DNA of 64,000 nucleotides from Opitutaceae bacterium (lineage in GTDB: Bacteria > Verrucomicrobiota > Verrucomicrobiia > Opitutales > Opitutaceae), in contig JAIXWY010000013.1 in the NCBI GenBank assembly GCA_027490995.1, forward strand, positions 1 to 64,000, given 5' to 3'. The notes beneath the pieces are model-generated. The model worked only from the letters and a program-made list of their open reading frames with translations, did no database searches and was not told the origin of the DNA. This document shows positions 1,919 through 63,858 of this stretch, in pieces. How positions within the stretch are numbered: the first letter of the stretch is position 1; each line of letters starts with the position of its first letter. Made by a program: the position numbers and the translations under genes.

Positions 1919-3109
1919 TTAACCCGCTGCGAGTGGGACCACGTTCGACGCTCCCGCAGGAGGGAGTAGGGCGTAGAAGCGTTCGGCATCGGCGCGCGTC
2001 GCCGCACCGAGGTAGTGCTTATGCAGCACGGCGGCCGTGTGGCCGCCCCAGCGCGCCGTTTGGTCCACGCTGCCGGAGAGTCCGACCCGGTACGTGATAG
2101 CCGTGTGCCGAAGGACGTTCTTTGGAAGCGGGACGTCGGCGGCGTTCGCCAATTGGCCTAACCGGTAGGTGTAGGCGTCCTCGATTCCGCGGGTGTCCTT
2201 CGGGTTAAAGTCGACGCCCTCGAGTTCAAGGACCCGGCCTGTCCGAGGGGGAAGCGTTGCCAGCCACCGGATCAGCGCCTCGGGCATGTCCACGGCGCGC
2301 GGTTGCCGCGTCTTGGTTAGATCGAGACGAAGGAAGTGGTCCTTCATGTGCTCCCAGCGGACGTGGGGCAGTTCCGAGCGCCGGACGCCCGCGAACAGCT
2401 GCAGCAGTACGCCGGGGAAGATGTCGGAAAACTCCACACGCGAGGCGGTCTCGAGCAGTTTCGCCACCTGCGCCGGCTGGAGTGTTGCGGGGCGAGACTC
2501 GTCGAGAATGGGCTTACTGATGCTCGCAGCGGGGTTCTCGCCGCGCCACCCGCGGTCGACGGCGTAATTGAAGAGGGCGTTGATGGAGGCCAACACGTTC
2601 CGCCGGGTCTTGGGGCTCGCGGGGGTCTCGCCGTCTTTCTTGGTAAGGTCGCCGAGGTAGCGCTCGATCTGTTCCCGGGAGACCGAGTCGATCGTCCGGC
2701 GCGGGAACTCCCCCCGGAAGGCGCTGATGTCGCTCCCGAGGACCGCGAGGTAACGGTCCTTGCAGTTCTTGTCCTTGCGCGACTGGAGGAAGCCCGTGCA
2801 GGCGTCGCCGAGGTCGACCTTGGCAGTGCGTGGGGCGTTTTTGAGGGCGTAGTGGATCGCGTCGGAGACGGTCATCCCACGCTCCTTGAGTTGGGAGACC
2901 AGATCAGGGCTGACCGCGAGGTGGGCTTCCAAGAGGCCGGCGGAGTGGTCCTTGGCTTCCTTCTCGGACTTGAAAAAGACCCGCTTCTTGCGGCCCCCGT
3001 TGAGGGAGGCCGGGACATTGAGTCGCCAGCGGTGCGCGCGCCCGTTCGGGCCGCGGACGACGCGCTTGTCCTTGTCCACCTTCACGGGTGGTCGGATGTG
3101 GTTTTTCAC
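1919..3109 (-). CDS. Tyrosine recombinase / phage-type integrase
   Basis: This 396-residue protein catalyses site-specific DNA recombination. Residues ~95-200 form the SAM-like core-binding domain and ~205-385 the catalytic domain. Visible catalytic residues are Arg243 (in GVRRSEL), Lys266, Arg334 (in LRHT), His357 (in WGGH) and the nucleophile Tyr366 (in HYLG). The usual His of the HxLR box is Asn331 here. The N-terminal ~90 residues are basic and may form an arm-binding domain. The gene starts 113 bases from the initiator tRNA gene and reads away from it, as expected for an integrase beside its attachment site in a tRNA. Direct GGACAC repeats lie between the two. Confidence 0.92.
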   Translation of the reverse strand: MKNHIRPPVKVDKDKRVVRGPNGRAHRWRLNVPASLNGGRKKRVFFKSEKEAKDHSAGLLEAHLAVSPDLVSQLKERGMTVSDAIHYALKNAPRTAKVDLGDACTGFLQSRKDKNCKDRYLAVLGSDISAFRGEFPRRTIDSVSREQIERYLGDLTKKDGETPASPKTRRNVLASINALFNYAVDRGWRGENPAASISKPILDESRPATLQPAQVAKLLETASRVEFSDIFPGVLLQLFAGVRRSELPHVRWEHMKDHFLRLDLTKTRQPRAVDMPEALIRWLATLPPRTGRVLELEGVDFNPKDTRGIEDAYTYRLGQLANAADVPLPKNVLRHTAITYRVGLSGSVDQTARWGGHTAAVLHKHYLGAATRADAERFYALLPPAGASNVVPLAAG

Positions 3110-3128
3110 GGTACCGGAAGGCCCTTAA

Positions 3129-3180
3129 TTTGGACACTTTTTGGACACCAGTCAACCGGAAGGCCCCAAACACCGGACAC
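3129..3180. repeat. GGACAC direct repeats between integrase and tRNA (candidate arm-type sites)
   Basis: TTTGGACAC occurs at 3129-3137 and again at 3140-3148, 11 bases apart or about one helical turn. A variant CCGGACAC follows at 3173-3180. The repeats lie just upstream of the integrase start and beside the tRNA 3' end, where integrases of this type usually bind arm sites. This function is inferred from position only. Confidence 0.45.
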
Positions 3181-3182
3181 AA

Positions 3183-3217
3183 AAAACCCCTGTAACCACG
3201 TGGGCCACAGGGGTTTT
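3183..3217 (-). terminator. Rho-independent terminator of the initiator tRNA gene
   Basis: Two perfect 11-base arms (AAAACCCCTGT at 3183-3193 and ACAGGGGTTTT at 3207-3217) enclose a 13-base loop. On the minus strand the stem ends in a run of six T (the last four stem bases plus 3182-3181). It lies just past the 3' end of the minus-strand tRNA. The stem is flanked by A and T runs on both sides, so it may work in both directions. Confidence 0.75.
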
Positions 3218-3221
3218 AAAT

Positions 3222-3298
<77 letters not shown>

Positions 3299-42175: not shown

Positions 42176-43810
<1,635 letters not shown>

Positions 43811-43825: not shown

Positions 43826-44620
43826 ATGCTCTACGATCCTTCCCGGCTGCTGGTGATCGCAGGCCCGTGCTCACTTGAGAGCGCGGACGTGTGTCGTGCG
43901 GTCGCGGATACGCTGGCGCGTTTGCGGACCGCGCATCCCGAGTTGAACCTCGTGTTCAAGGGTTCGTTTGACAAAGCGAACCGCACGTCGCTCGCGGGGG
44001 CGCGCGGCACAGGGCTAGCGGAAGGGTTGCGGCTCCTCGCGGACGTGCGGCGTAGCCATGGTTTTCCGGTGCTGACGGATGTGCACGAATCGGCCCAGAT
44101 GGCGGCGGTCGCGGAGGTTTGCGATGTCGTGCAGATTCCGGCGTTCCTTTGCCGCCAGACTGACCTGCTCCTCGCCGCCGCGGGCACCGGTCGCGTGGTG
44201 AACGTGAAAAAGGGGCAGTTCCTTTCTCCGCAGGAGATGAGTCACGTCACCGACAAGCTGCGGGAGGGCGGGGCGGCGGAGATCTGGCAAACGGAGCGCG
44301 GGACGACCTTCGGCTACCAAAACCTAGTCGTGGATATGCGTTCCTTCCCGATCATGGCCCGCAACGGCTATCCGACGGTGTTCGACGCCACGCACGCCGT
44401 GCAGTTGCCCGGAGCGGCTGGAGGCCGCAGCGGCGGCCAACGCGAATTCGTTGCACCGCTGGCCCTCGCCGCGGTCGCGGCAGGCGCCAATGGAGTGTTC
44501 ATCGAAACGCATCCAGACCCGGATCGCGCGATCAGCGACGGACCCAATATGATCGCCCTGGCCGACCTCCCGGCCCTGCTGCAGCGCATCCTCGCGGTAT
44601 GGCGCGCGGTGCGGGCGTGA
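43826..44620 (+). CDS. kdsA: 3-deoxy-8-phosphooctulonate synthase (KDO-8-phosphate synthase)
   Basis: This 264-residue aldolase condenses PEP with arabinose-5-phosphate to KDO-8-P, the first committed KDO step for lipopolysaccharide. It has [23 protein letters not shown] and the [10 protein letters not shown] end. It is coupled to pyrG. Its presence shows a Gram-negative outer membrane with LPS. Confidence 0.97.
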
Positions 44621-44740: not shown

Positions 44741-46360
44741 ATGTCCACCTTCCTCATCGACGTTCCGATGCCCTCGATGGGCGCCACGGTCAACGAGTTG
44801 ACCATCATCGACTTGAAGGTCGCCGCGGGAGCAGCGGTACGCAAGGGGCAGATCATTGCGGAGCTCGAGAGCGACAAGTCGGTCTTCGAGTACGAGGCGC
44901 CGTGTGACGGGGAGATTGTGTCCGTCCACTGTCGCGCCGGTGACATCGTCCCGAGCGGCGGACTTTTTCTGCGCATCCGGACCGCAGACGTTTCGCTGCA
45001 GCACCTGAAGGCTGCGGAGGGCGAGACGCCGGTCGCCGGCTCCAAGGTGTCGGGTAGCGCTCCGATGGCTGCGGCCGCGCCCGTCATGGCGCCGGCCACC
45101 GCGGCATCGAGGACGGTGGCGGCTCCCGTGTCGCCCCTCCCGGCGTCACTCGCGACGACCGCCCGCGGCGGGACCGCTCTGGGCTGGACGCCGCGTGCGC
45201 TCAAGCTGGCACAGGATGCCGGGCTCGATCCGGCGACTCTGACGGATGTGCCGGCGACCGGTCCCGGCGGTCGAGTTTCCGGGGATGACTTTGCCCAGTA
45301 CCTTCAGCGTCGCGGTGCGGGAACGTCTACCCCGGTGTCGGCTGGATCCTCCGGCGTCGCCTCCACAGTGGCGGCCGATACCGTGTGCATCGCGGGCGTC
45401 GGCTATGCGGTGCCGAAGAACATCCGGCCCACGAGTGAGATCCTGAAGGCCTTTCCTGATCGGACTGAGGAAGAGATGATCAAGCTCACCGGCATCAAGG
45501 AGCGCCGGTATGCCGACGGGGATGAGACGGCGACGAGTCTGGCCGTGACCGCAGTGCGGCGTGCGCTAGAACAGTCGGGAACGTCACTTGGCGAGATCGA
45601 CGGCATCATCATGGCGACGATCCTCCCGGACCAACCCGTGCCGGCGATGGCGAGTGCCCTGGCGCGGGAGTTGGGCATTCCCGGCGTGTTTGCGTTCGAC
45701 CTGAACGCAGCCTGTTCCGGATGGCTGTATGCGCTGGAGGTCGGCCGCTCGCTGATTTGTGGTGGCTCGGCGCGGAGCTTGATCGTCGTGACGGCGGAAT
45801 TGCTGTCGCGGATCACCAACCCGACGGACCACGAGACGGCATTCCTCTTTGGCGATGGAGCCGGAGCGGCGATTCTCTCCCGCGCGCCGGGTGGACATCG
45901 GCTGCACCGCATGGCGCTCGCGGGTGATGCCACGCAGTTCTCGGCGATCCAGCGGCGTGGCGGTGGAGCACTGCGGCCCTTCCCGGAGCCGGGTGGCAAA
46001 GACCGGGCGGATTTCTACCTGCAGATGAACGGGGCGATGGTCTTCAAGAGCGCGGTGGTCGCGTTTGCGGACCAGATCGAAGCCACGCTCAAGCGTCACG
46101 GGCTGCGTCCCGAGGACATCGCATGGGTCGTGCCGCATCAGGCGAACGAGCGGATCTTGCGCGCGGTCAGCAAGCGCGTGGGCATTCCCTTTGAGAAGGT
46201 CGTGATGACCATCGACCGTTACGGTAACACCAGTGGAGCCTCGGTCTCGATGGCGCTGGGGTGGGCGGCGCAGGAAGGCATCTTCCAGCCGGGTGACCGC
46301 ATCATCTTCTGCAGCGTGGGTGCGGGCCTGACCTTCGCCGGCGGCCTGCTCGTCTGGTGA
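44741..46360 (+). CDS. Fusion of lipoyl domain, E3-binding domain and beta-ketoacyl-ACP synthase III
   Basis: This 539-residue protein joins three domains that are normally separate. Residues ~4-80 form a lipoyl domain with Lys46 in ESDKSVFEY, an Ala/Pro linker follows, and residues ~149-187 look like a peripheral-subunit (E3)-binding domain (WTPRALKLAQDAG, TGPGGRVSGDD). Residues ~215-539 are a full KAS III (FabH) with Cys325 (AACSG), His466 (PHQAN) and Asn496 (GNTSG). FabH primes fatty-acid synthesis from acyl-CoA. The added domains come from 2-oxoacid dehydrogenase E2. An acyl group could pass from lipoyl to the synthase, but this is inference. It follows kdsA by 120 bases. Confidence 0.93.
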   Translation: MSTFLIDVPMPSMGATVNELTIIDLKVAAGAAVRKGQIIAELESDKSVFEYEAPCDGEIVSVHCRAGDIVPSGGLFLRIRTADVSLQHLKAAEGETPVAGSKVSGSAPMAAAAPVMAPATAASRTVAAPVSPLPASLATTARGGTALGWTPRALKLAQDAGLDPATLTDVPATGPGGRVSGDDFAQYLQRRGAGTSTPVSAGSSGVASTVAADTVCIAGVGYAVPKNIRPTSEILKAFPDRTEEEMIKLTGIKERRYADGDETATSLAVTAVRRALEQSGTSLGEIDGIIMATILPDQPVPAMASALARELGIPGVFAFDLNAACSGWLYALEVGRSLICGGSARSLIVVTAELLSRITNPTDHETAFLFGDGAGAAILSRAPGGHRLHRMALAGDATQFSAIQRRGGGALRPFPEPGGKDRADFYLQMNGAMVFKSAVVAFADQIEATLKRHGLRPEDIAWVVPHQANERILRAVSKRVGIPFEKVVMTIDRYGNTSGASVSMALGWAAQEGIFQPGDRIIFCSVGAGLTFAGGLLVW

Positions 46361-62574: not shown

Positions 62575-63858
62575 TTACAGCAGCAGCAACGCAGGCTTCT
62601 GCAGCACGTCGCGCAGCGCGGCAAGGAACGTAGCGCCAACTGCCCCGTCGACGACCCGGTGGTCGCACGACAGCGTGAGTGACATCCGCTGACCGACGAC
62701 GATCTGGTCGCCCTCGACGACCGGCTTGGTCACGGTGGCGCCGACGGCGAGGATTGCGGCATTGGGCGGATTGATGATGGCGGAGAAACGATCGATGCCC
62801 ATCATTCCCAGATTGCTGACGCAGAAGGTACCACCGGTGAACTGTTCCGGCTTGAGCTTCTTGTCCTTGGCCAGCCGCCCGAGTGACTTGGCCTCGCTGC
62901 TGATTGCGAAAATCGACTTGGCGTGTGCATCGCGCACGACCGGGGTGATGAGCCCATCCTCGATCGCGACGGCGAAGGAGACGTGAGCGGCGCCGTGGTA
63001 GCGGATGTGCGATCCCTCCCACGAAGCATTGACGGCGGGAACGCGACGCAGCGCCTCGGCGCAGGCCTTGAGGATGAAGTCGTTGACGGAGAGCTTGACG
63101 CCCTCGGCCTCGAGGCTCGCGTTCAACTGCTGACGCAGCGTGAGGAGCGGCGCGACATCCACCTCCACCTCCAGGTAGAAGTGCGGGATCTGAGTCTTGG
63201 ACTCGAGCAGGCGCTTGGCGATCACGCCGCGCATCGTGGAGACCGCGACGGCGCGATCCTCTTGGATGGGGCCCTTGGCGAAGACGGAGCTGGTGGGCAG
63301 GCTTGCGGAGGACCGACGCGCGCTGGGATTGGCGGCAGCCGCGAGAACGTCGGCGCGGACGATCCGCCCGCTGGGGCCGGAGCCCTGAATCGAAGCGGGA
63401 GCGATCTGGTGCTCGTTGGCGAGCTTGCGGGCGAGCGGGGTGATCCGGATGCGTTCAGAACTGCTGGTGGCTGCGGCGGCGGCTGGGGCCGGAGTCGGAG
63501 CCGCGGCGGCCGGAGCAGGAGCGGGGGCGGCCGGGGTGGGAGCGGGGGCCGGTGCGACCTTGGCGGTGGGCGCGGGTTGGCTGGCAGCGGCGGCGGTGGC
63601 GGTCGTGGCGACCGTCTCGCCCGGCTTGCCGACGGCGCAGAGCGGGGCGCCGATCGCGACCTGAGAGCCGGCCGGAGAAAAGATCTTGAGCAGCGTGCCA
63701 TCGAAGAAGCACTCGAGCTCCATCGTCGCCTTGTCCGTCTCGACCTCGGCGAGCATGGTGCCCGACTTCACGACGTCGCCTTCCTTCTTTAGCCATTTGA
63801 CCAGCGTACCCACCGTCATGGTGTCGCTGAGTTTGGGCATCTCGATGATTTGGGCCAT
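62575..63858 (-). CDS. pdhC: Dihydrolipoamide acetyltransferase E2 of pyruvate dehydrogenase
   Basis: This 427-residue E2 core has a lipoyl domain with Lys43 in ETDKATME, a long Ala/Pro linker (~90-130), an E3-binding domain (~138-172; ITPLARKLA, GSGPSGRI) and the acyltransferase domain with DHRVVDG (His400, Asp404). It transfers the acetyl group to CoA. The E1-beta-like gene end lies just upstream on the same strand. Acetyl specificity follows from that context. A branched-chain E2 is less likely. Confidence 0.94.
   Translation of the reverse strand: MAQIIEMPKLSDTMTVGTLVKWLKKEGDVVKSGTMLAEVETDKATMELECFFDGTLLKIFSPAGSQVAIGAPLCAVGKPGETVATTATAAAASQPAPTAKVAPAPAPTPAAPAPAPAAAAPTPAPAAAAATSSSERIRITPLARKLANEHQIAPASIQGSGPSGRIVRADVLAAAANPSARRSSASLPTSSVFAKGPIQEDRAVAVSTMRGVIAKRLLESKTQIPHFYLEVEVDVAPLLTLRQQLNASLEAEGVKLSVNDFILKACAEALRRVPAVNASWEGSHIRYHGAAHVSFAVAIEDGLITPVVRDAHAKSIFAISSEAKSLGRLAKDKKLKPEQFTGGTFCVSNLGMMGIDRFSAIINPPNAAILAVGATVTKPVVEGDQIVVGQRMSLTLSCDHRVVDGAVGATFLAALRDVLQKPALLLL

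Follow-up and report, generated by a model that had tools for sequence, protein, structure and literature searches.

Coenzyme A (CoA) is taught as the carrier on which acyl groups leave the 2-oxoacid dehydrogenase complexes and enter type II fatty-acid synthesis. In Bacillus-type branched priming, the branched-chain 2-oxoacid dehydrogenase (BCKDH) supplies acyl-CoA, a diffusible intermediate, to FabH, a beta-ketoacyl-acyl carrier protein (ACP) synthase III (KAS III). The E3-binding protein of mitochondrial pyruvate dehydrogenase (PDH), also called protein X, carries lipoyl and E3-binding domains without active E2 chemistry. Here, we analyzed a 64,000-nucleotide stretch (the window) of contig JAIXWY010000013.1 from the Opitutaceae bacterium assembly GCA_027490995.1, in which a gene on the forward strand (44741-46360) encodes a 539-residue fusion of a lipoyl domain, an E3-binding domain (E3BD) and a KAS III. 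The joining of a lipoyl arm to a KAS III, which occupies the place of the E2 acyltransferase, suggests a start of fatty acids that bypasses CoA. We consider it somewhat more likely than not that the protein is a priming enzyme drawing its starter acyl group from the lipoyl arm instead of from CoA. For the wider proposal, a 2-oxoacid dehydrogenase assembly in which a condensing enzyme would replace the E2 acyltransferase and prime (branched) fatty acids from oxoacids without acyl-CoA, we see the chances as even. There is a real chance that the fusion represents a novel mode of fatty-acid initiation.

Domain architecture and active site of the fusion protein

The initial annotation had read a lipoyl domain with Lys46, an E3BD and a complete KAS III from one frame, and open reading frame, Pfam and NCBIfam all agree with it. 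The frame starts with ATG and is free of internal stops over its 539 residues. The lipoyl domain (residues 1-90; 44741-45010), with the expected lipoyl-lysine Lys46 in the motif ESDKS, is matched by Biotin_lipoyl (PF00364) at residues 7-78 (1e-13, 51.3 bits, cut-off 22.1), and the E3BD, or peripheral subunit-binding domain (residues 148-188; 45182-45304), with Arg152 within WTPRA and Arg178 within GPGGRVSGDD, by E3_binding (PF02817) at residues 150-183 (1.2e-7, 32.2 bits, cut-off 23.7), so that both N-terminal domains stand above their Pfam cut-offs. The KAS III domain (residues 213-539; 45377-46357), containing Cys325, His466 and Asn496, is matched by ACP_syn_III (PF08545; residues 319-391, 1.1e-22), by ACP_syn_III_C (PF08541; residues 450-539, 2.7e-30) and by the NCBIfam model PRK09352, 'beta-ketoacyl-ACP synthase 3' (residues 214-539, 304.2 bits versus a cut-off of 249). 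Its score with the fabH model TIGR00747, 273.5, lies under the cut-off of 292.1. Pfam, searched at E up to 1, detected no acyltransferase domain (PF00198) in the fusion protein. A biotinyl domain in place of the lipoyl domain is disfavored by the DK(S) motif and by the E2 profiles matching that stretch.

The domains are separated by a flexible, Ala/Pro-rich linker 1 (residues 91-147; 45011-45181) and by linker 2 (residues 189-212; 45305-45376). An AlphaFold2 model of the single chain (mean predicted local distance difference test, pLDDT, 75.1; predicted template-modeling score 0.63) shows a beta-rich part at about residues 1-90, a small helical part at about 149-190 and the KAS from about 213, and pLDDT falls below 50 at residues 95-145 and 193-210, the low-confidence linkers. 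In a Foldseek search of the model against the PDB, the best 50 of 1076 matches (E up to 0.001) were all of KAS III type with FabHs leading, the closest neighbors being the FabHs of Yersinia, E. coli, S. aureus and Aquifex at 33-36% identity.

An excerpt of a FabH study (PMC4606726) places the adenine of CoA between Trp32 and Arg151 and in contact with Thr28, and has Arg36 contacting the pantetheine part. We aligned 41 KAS domains, one per genome (35 fused, 5 separate and 1 cut by a contig edge), with E. coli FabH and 25 canonical FabHs from Opitutaceae and genome G031, the window genome's own FabH included, as reference rows. The combination T/W/R/R at T28, W32, R36 and R151 occurs in 25/25 canonical FabHs and in 0/41 fused or adjacent KAS domains, where the replacements are mostly Arg, Glu, Leu or His; the window's fusion itself has T28 changed to R, W32 to E, R36 to L and R151 to H. 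The catalytic residues C112, H244 and N274 are kept in 41/41 and 25/25, in line with the earlier assignment of Cys325, His466 and Asn496 as the triad. K214 and R249, which we take to be the ACP-side basic residues of FabH, are likewise kept in all 41 and all 25. With the CoA-site combination in none and K214/R249 in all of the 41 domains, the KAS domain is, judged by its sequence, a condensing enzyme that has kept its ACP-side residues and lost the CoA-holding ones. Position 87 was discarded as a discriminator, being Val in 41/41 KAS domains, yet varying among canonical FabHs, 3/25 of which also have Val.

A canonical FabH is present in 25/25 genomes searched. In the window's genome (G000), where the presence of a separate fabH had been raised as a question, it is a canonical KAS III encoded beside a plsX-like gene (G000:C14:597644). 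A third KAS III-like gene of this genome (locus L059, G000:C14:383000-401000) is clustered with a FabI-like reductase, a dehydratase-like protein and an alpha/beta hydrolase, an arrangement presumably reminiscent of the OleA/OleB hydrocarbon genes.

Distribution, conservation and the candidate E1 partner

The three-domain order, sought in related genomes, recurs. In a survey of 384 genomes of the class, in which a match of more than 650 bits to the fusion model defined KAS-bearing genomes, 23 were found, 18 with the fusion and 5 with its parts as separate neighboring genes (G012, G015, G195, G267 and G325). All 23 are Opitutaceae, G031 excepted. In the family of G031, a second family, the full-length fusion is present in 6/8 genomes and as two contig-end pieces in a seventh; it was not found in the eighth, which is 88% complete. 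The 38 nearest genomes, the window's own included, comprise 19 with the full-length fusion on a single frame, two with adjacent parts (G012, G015), one with the lipoyl-E3BD part alone (G023) and two with contig-edge pieces (G019, G022). A peptide scan of genome contigs with the window's protein returned 19 loci. Relatives with identities of 58-91% account for 18 of these and are labeled as Verrucomicrobia groups in 17 cases and as Sumerlaeota in one. The latter, a 3.2-kb contig (L037, JADZDZ010000320.1) labeled Candidatus Sumerlaeota with the fusion at 74% identity, is likely a mis-binned Opitutaceae contig. Genome G272 holds, besides its main copy (861 bits), a second, diverged and nearly full-length lipoyl-E3BD-KAS copy (G272:C66:12449-13978, 711 bits). 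Since the full-length fusion occurs in many independent assemblies, single-contig genomes (among them G013, G021, G117, G257 and G411) included, an assembly or annotation artefact is ruled out. No such fusion is described among the matches listed from the open-license PMC literature (titles and abstract starts); subscription journals lie mostly outside that collection, so that absence from print is not established.

Residues were counted over 50 lipoyl-E3BD modules and 41 KAS domains, in rows chosen by match coordinates alone; the pieces at contig edges in G019 and G412 are excluded, as are the module parts from G015, G195, G267 and G325. Position 46 is Lys in 50/50 modules, position 178 is Arg in 49/50, and position 152 is Arg in 39/50 and Lys in 11/50. 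Across 31 fused rows (L262-L265, included in the residue counts, being left out here), mean identity to the window's residue is 70% in the lipoyl domain, 72% in the E3BD and 78% in the KAS, and 0.20 and 0.21 as a fraction in linkers 1 and 2. The ratio of nonsynonymous to synonymous substitution rates (dN/dS) in seven pairs, which are partly dependent as two sequences were used twice, is 0.06-0.12 for the lipoyl domain, 0-0.37 for the E3BD, 0.01-0.06 for the KAS and 0.19-0.68 for linker 1. All three domains are thus, by these estimates, kept under purifying selection, and the linkers look like tethers. Conservation of and selection on the lipoyl domain and E3BD rule out a decayed or decorative N-terminus.

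To which E1 the arm would belong can be approached by co-occurrence. A census of E1 proteins (PF00676) in 38 relatives gave three classes: a PDH-type E1alpha, an oxoglutarate dehydrogenase (OGDH)-type E1 and a fused E1alpha-beta some 680 residues long, the last encoded in the window's genome at G000:C9:129917-131962 (L099, L132). The fused E1 is present in 37/384 class genomes (>1100 bits; next match 527), and the 23 KAS-bearing genomes all belong to these 37. None of the 347 class genomes without the fused E1 has a KAS match above 321 bits. The 14 fused-E1 genomes without KAS all have a stand-alone lipoyl-E3BD protein (13 at 218-267 bits, plus that of G023, L056), and the module hence accompanies the fused E1 in 37/37 genomes. 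Four Opitutaceae without the fused E1 (G059 and G262 by the class survey, G017 and G018 by the E1 census) have no module, with matches of 73 bits or less, a bound that also holds for 12 other Verrucomicrobia tested; the remaining genomes without this E1 were not searched for stand-alone modules. Inspection of 17 fused-E1 loci by eye, covering three genes to either side, showed no E2 or E3 gene. The closest relatives of the fused E1 in other Verrucomicrobia have an E2-like gene immediately after E1alpha-E1beta in 9/10 loci.

The window also encodes a conventional E2 of 427 residues (62575-63858, reverse strand; PF00198 at G000:C4:62578-63261), belonging to a PDH-type operon, with E1beta- and E1alpha-like frames upstream of it, beyond the window (L067; E1alpha 287 bits). 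The initial annotation proposed that the fusion would add one more output to this lipoyl machinery. The conventional E2 is indeed there; since the module tracks the fused E1, however, this PDH operon is probably not the main partner, and the PDH E1 beside it is disfavored in that role. The partner E1 is likely the fused E1 encoded elsewhere in the genome.

Matches to the E2 catalytic domain were counted in 24 relatives with KAS or module, 22 of which are also listed with a fused-length E1 (that of G019 by length only). Exactly two matches were present in 19 relatives (for G002 and G022 this count includes one contig-edge piece each), three in 3 and none in 2, namely G019 (67% complete) and G031 (96% complete). 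G031 yielded no match to PDH- or OGDH-type E1 either; it carries the fused E1, the fusion, a lipA match (spanning one TGA) and one dihydrolipoamide dehydrogenase (Lpd) over the cut-off, and lipA and Lpd were above the cut-off in 4/4 genomes tested, G031 included. The fusion is the sole E2-like protein found in G031. If the proposal holds, the lipoyl-KAS assembly would be the only assembly of its type in the G031 cell. In G409, of the same genus and perhaps a similar case, only an 84-residue lipoyl-like frame and a 396-residue frame are shown besides the fusion and FabH. As for the E3, one Lpd gene of the window's genome lies next to the OGDH-type E2 and a second stands alone; the stand-alone Lpd is a candidate E3.

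Proposed mechanism and competing explanations

In the proposed cycle, the orphan fused E1alpha-beta would decarboxylate a 2-oxoacid, probably branched-chain, and reductively acylate the lipoyl group on Lys46. The lipoyl domain would then swing via its linker to the KAS III of the same or a partner chain and pass the acyl group to Cys325. Condensation with malonyl-ACP would give 3-oxoacyl-ACP, the intermediate with which (branched) fatty-acid synthesis begins, and Lpd, docked as E3 on the E3BD, would reoxidize the arm. Such a route from E1 over the lipoyl arm to the KAS III, without free acyl-CoA and with recycling by E3, had been put forward in the initial annotation; this still hypothetical route is the best-supported reading because the CoA-site residues are lost, the ACP-side residues are kept and the fused E1 co-occurs with the module. 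A Rosetta-stone pattern also speaks for it, as the two parts of the fusion are separate neighbors in 5 class genomes.

The intact KAS III fold and triad would equally suit an ordinary acyl-CoA-dependent FabH whose lipoyl-E3BD part merely docks to a 2-oxoacid dehydrogenase and channels newly made acyl-CoA, and the window's genome does encode E1 and E2 of both PDH and OGDH type. We regard this as unlikely: the CoA-site residues are replaced in 41/41 domains, Lys46, needless for a mere dock, is present in 50/50 modules, and G031, although it carries the fusion, has no E2 catalytic domain that could produce acyl-CoA. If the mechanism were as proposed and the partner were instead the PDH E1 at the window's edge, the starter would be acetyl. 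The PDH-type E1/E2 operon starts only 16 kb away and E1s can acylate foreign lipoyl domains; the module nevertheless tracks the fused E1 and G031 lacks a PDH-type E1alpha match, which makes this variant very unlikely.

The KAS domain might also transfer rather than condense, moving the lipoyl-bound acyl group to ACP or another thiol in the manner of CerJ/ChlB3-type KSIII enzymes. KSIII-like acyltransferases exist, as an excerpted report states (PMC9573744), and the canonical FabH found in every genome searched could take care of priming. That report, in the same excerpt, gives ChlB3 and CerJ a Cys-His-Asp triad (PMC9573744), as opposed to Cys-His-Asn in 41/41 domains here, and we consider a pure transferase distinctly unlikely. 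A redox or regulatory role of the lipoyl arm, such as holding the KAS cysteine in its reduced form through E3, instead of acyl carriage would fit the retention of lipoyl-E3BD without KAS in 14 genomes, but would leave unexplained both its co-occurrence with an acyl-making E1 in 37/37 genomes and the loss of the CoA-site residues. This we hold to be highly improbable.

Regarding the substrate, partial texts of two reports (PMC5303756, PMC12193912) give high contents of iso- or anteiso-C15:0 for Lacunisphaera and other Opitutales, and Lacunisphaera has iso-C13:0 3-OH (excerpt of PMC5303756). These fatty acids point to branched oxoacids, and a branched-chain substrate of the lipoyl-KAS system is plausible.

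Several observations weigh against the proposal of lipoyl-fed, branched-chain priming. Since 14/37 fused-E1 genomes retain the E1 and the lipoyl-E3BD protein without KAS, the E1-lipoyl pair is kept independently of the KAS. In the census of 38 genomes, two that have the fusion or a part of it deviate: the fused E1 is not listed for G004, and G022 shows only a contig-edge piece that is possibly a fused E1. The CoA-site comparison covers canonical FabHs and not other KAS III families using CoA. In the fusion of G277 (L122) the E3-binding loop reads GPGGAISGDD, with Ala replacing Arg178. Lacunisphaera limnophila contains 48.6% iso-C15:0, as stated in the excerpt of PMC5303756, and G262, presumably this species, has neither fused E1 nor module, so that branched fatty acids would not depend on the module. 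Other Opitutales families are likewise reported to contain branched acids (PMC12193912, partial text). At best, the module provides one branched-acid route among several. Finally, the fused E1 sequence finds pyruvate E1 and branched-chain E1 alike in the PDB and hence leaves the substrate unsettled.

Genomic context, history and comparison with known systems

Upstream of the fusion gene, on the same strand, lie a kdsA-like gene (Kdo-8-phosphate synthase, where Kdo is 3-deoxy-D-manno-octulosonate; 43826-44620), the usual upstream neighbor of the module, and a pyrG-like gene (CTP synthase; 42179-43810). The neighbor names kdsA, kdsC, pyrG, lptC/A, rsmE, plsX and oleA/B are assigned from sequence features, E. 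coli genes excepted. A same-strand kdsA-like frame is found within 600 bp of the module in 29/38 loci, the order pyrG-kdsA-module holds in most loci listed, and the stand-alone lipoyl-E3BD genes adjoin kdsA-like and mostly pyrG-like genes as well. The fused E1 of the window's genome lies directly upstream of kdsC-lptC-lptA-like genes; a KdsC-like phosphatase gene, recognized by motif, directly adjoins the fused E1 in 32/40 loci, with LptC/LptA-like genes nearby. Both loci thus have Kdo/lipopolysaccharide surroundings, the fusion usually after kdsA and the fused E1 before kdsC-lptC-lptA-like genes. That these neighbors hint at a product serving lipid A is speculation. At the other end of the window, a recombinase-like frame (1919-3109, reverse strand) next to a tRNA-Met gene (3222-3298, reverse strand) possibly marks the edge of an integrated element (1919-3298).

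In a quickly built tree of 40 fused E1s, for which five E1 operons served as the root and which leaves out G012, G011, G267, G002, G005, G006, G008, G009 and G019, genomes with the fusion (G031 on a long branch, G021 and the G020 group) diverge first, with a weakly supported base. The tree needs four changes among the fused, adjacent and alone states; its well-supported branches alone force just one KAS loss. On the simplest account, an ancient three-domain protein was split at a later point, and its KAS disappeared in two groups. In a lipoyl-E3BD tree with ordinary E2s the module forms one group (support 95), with long branches that blur its origin.

A further protein combines E1alpha-like, E1beta-like, lipoyl and E2 catalytic domains on one chain (L116:132-3308 in G018), with no E3BD match; this domain content comes from a Pfam scan of the G018 copy only. 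The E1-lipoyl-E2 chain is found in 15/41 genomes (E up to 1e-100), the query's genome G018 included, in open frames of 1033-1140 residues and two of 1408 and 1580. It occurs in 2/23 KAS-bearing genomes, in 9/14 KAS-less genomes with the module and in 4/4 without the module, that is, in 13/18 KAS-less versus 2/23 KAS-bearing genomes (Fisher p 4e-5, uncorrected for kinship). Five KAS-less genomes (G139, G186, G229, G316 and G330) have neither the KAS nor this chain. The pattern fits interchangeable routes to starter acyl groups, one through the KAS and one through the E1-lipoyl-E2 chain, and the latter offers a possible explanation for the loss of the KAS.

The carriers of the fusion include some soil and water bacteria, and Opitutus terrae PB90-1, in which the split form is presumed, would be a probable culturable host. 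The natural variants (fused, adjacent and KAS-less) bear on why the KAS was attached and lost. If the proposal is right, the fusion would provide a CoA-free link from oxoacid decarboxylation to lipid priming.

Compared with the E2 proteins of PDH, OGDH and BCKDH, the fusion shares the order lipoyl-linker-E3BD-linker-catalytic domain, the lipoyl DK motif and the match to the E3BD profile. It differs in having a KAS III in place of PF00198, so that an enzyme cysteine and malonyl-ACP would accept the acyl group instead of CoA. With FabH it shares the fold, the Cys-His-Asn triad, the ACP-side Lys214 and Arg249 and 33-36% identity to the best solved structures; unlike FabH, it lacks T28/W32/R36/R151, scores below the TIGR00747 cut-off and has an acyl arm of its own. 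Protein X resembles the stand-alone lipoyl-E3BD form of 157 residues. In contrast to protein X, however, neither the fused form nor the scanned stand-alone forms (L056, L054) showed an E2-like core domain (PF00198), and the module tracks a fused E1 without an adjacent E2. CerJ and ChlB3 have the KAS III fold in a transfer role (PMC9573744, excerpt); they use Cys-His-Asp versus the Cys-His-Asn of the fusion, and no lipoyl domain is described for them in the excerpted part of that report (PMC9573744). Bacillus-type priming likewise feeds a KAS III from 2-oxoacid decarboxylation, and here the lipoyl arm would replace the diffusible acyl-CoA. By the residues and domains compared, the fusion is neither an E2, since the acyltransferase domain is missing, nor a typical FabH, since the CoA-site residues are gone; it would act as an E2 and a FabH in series.

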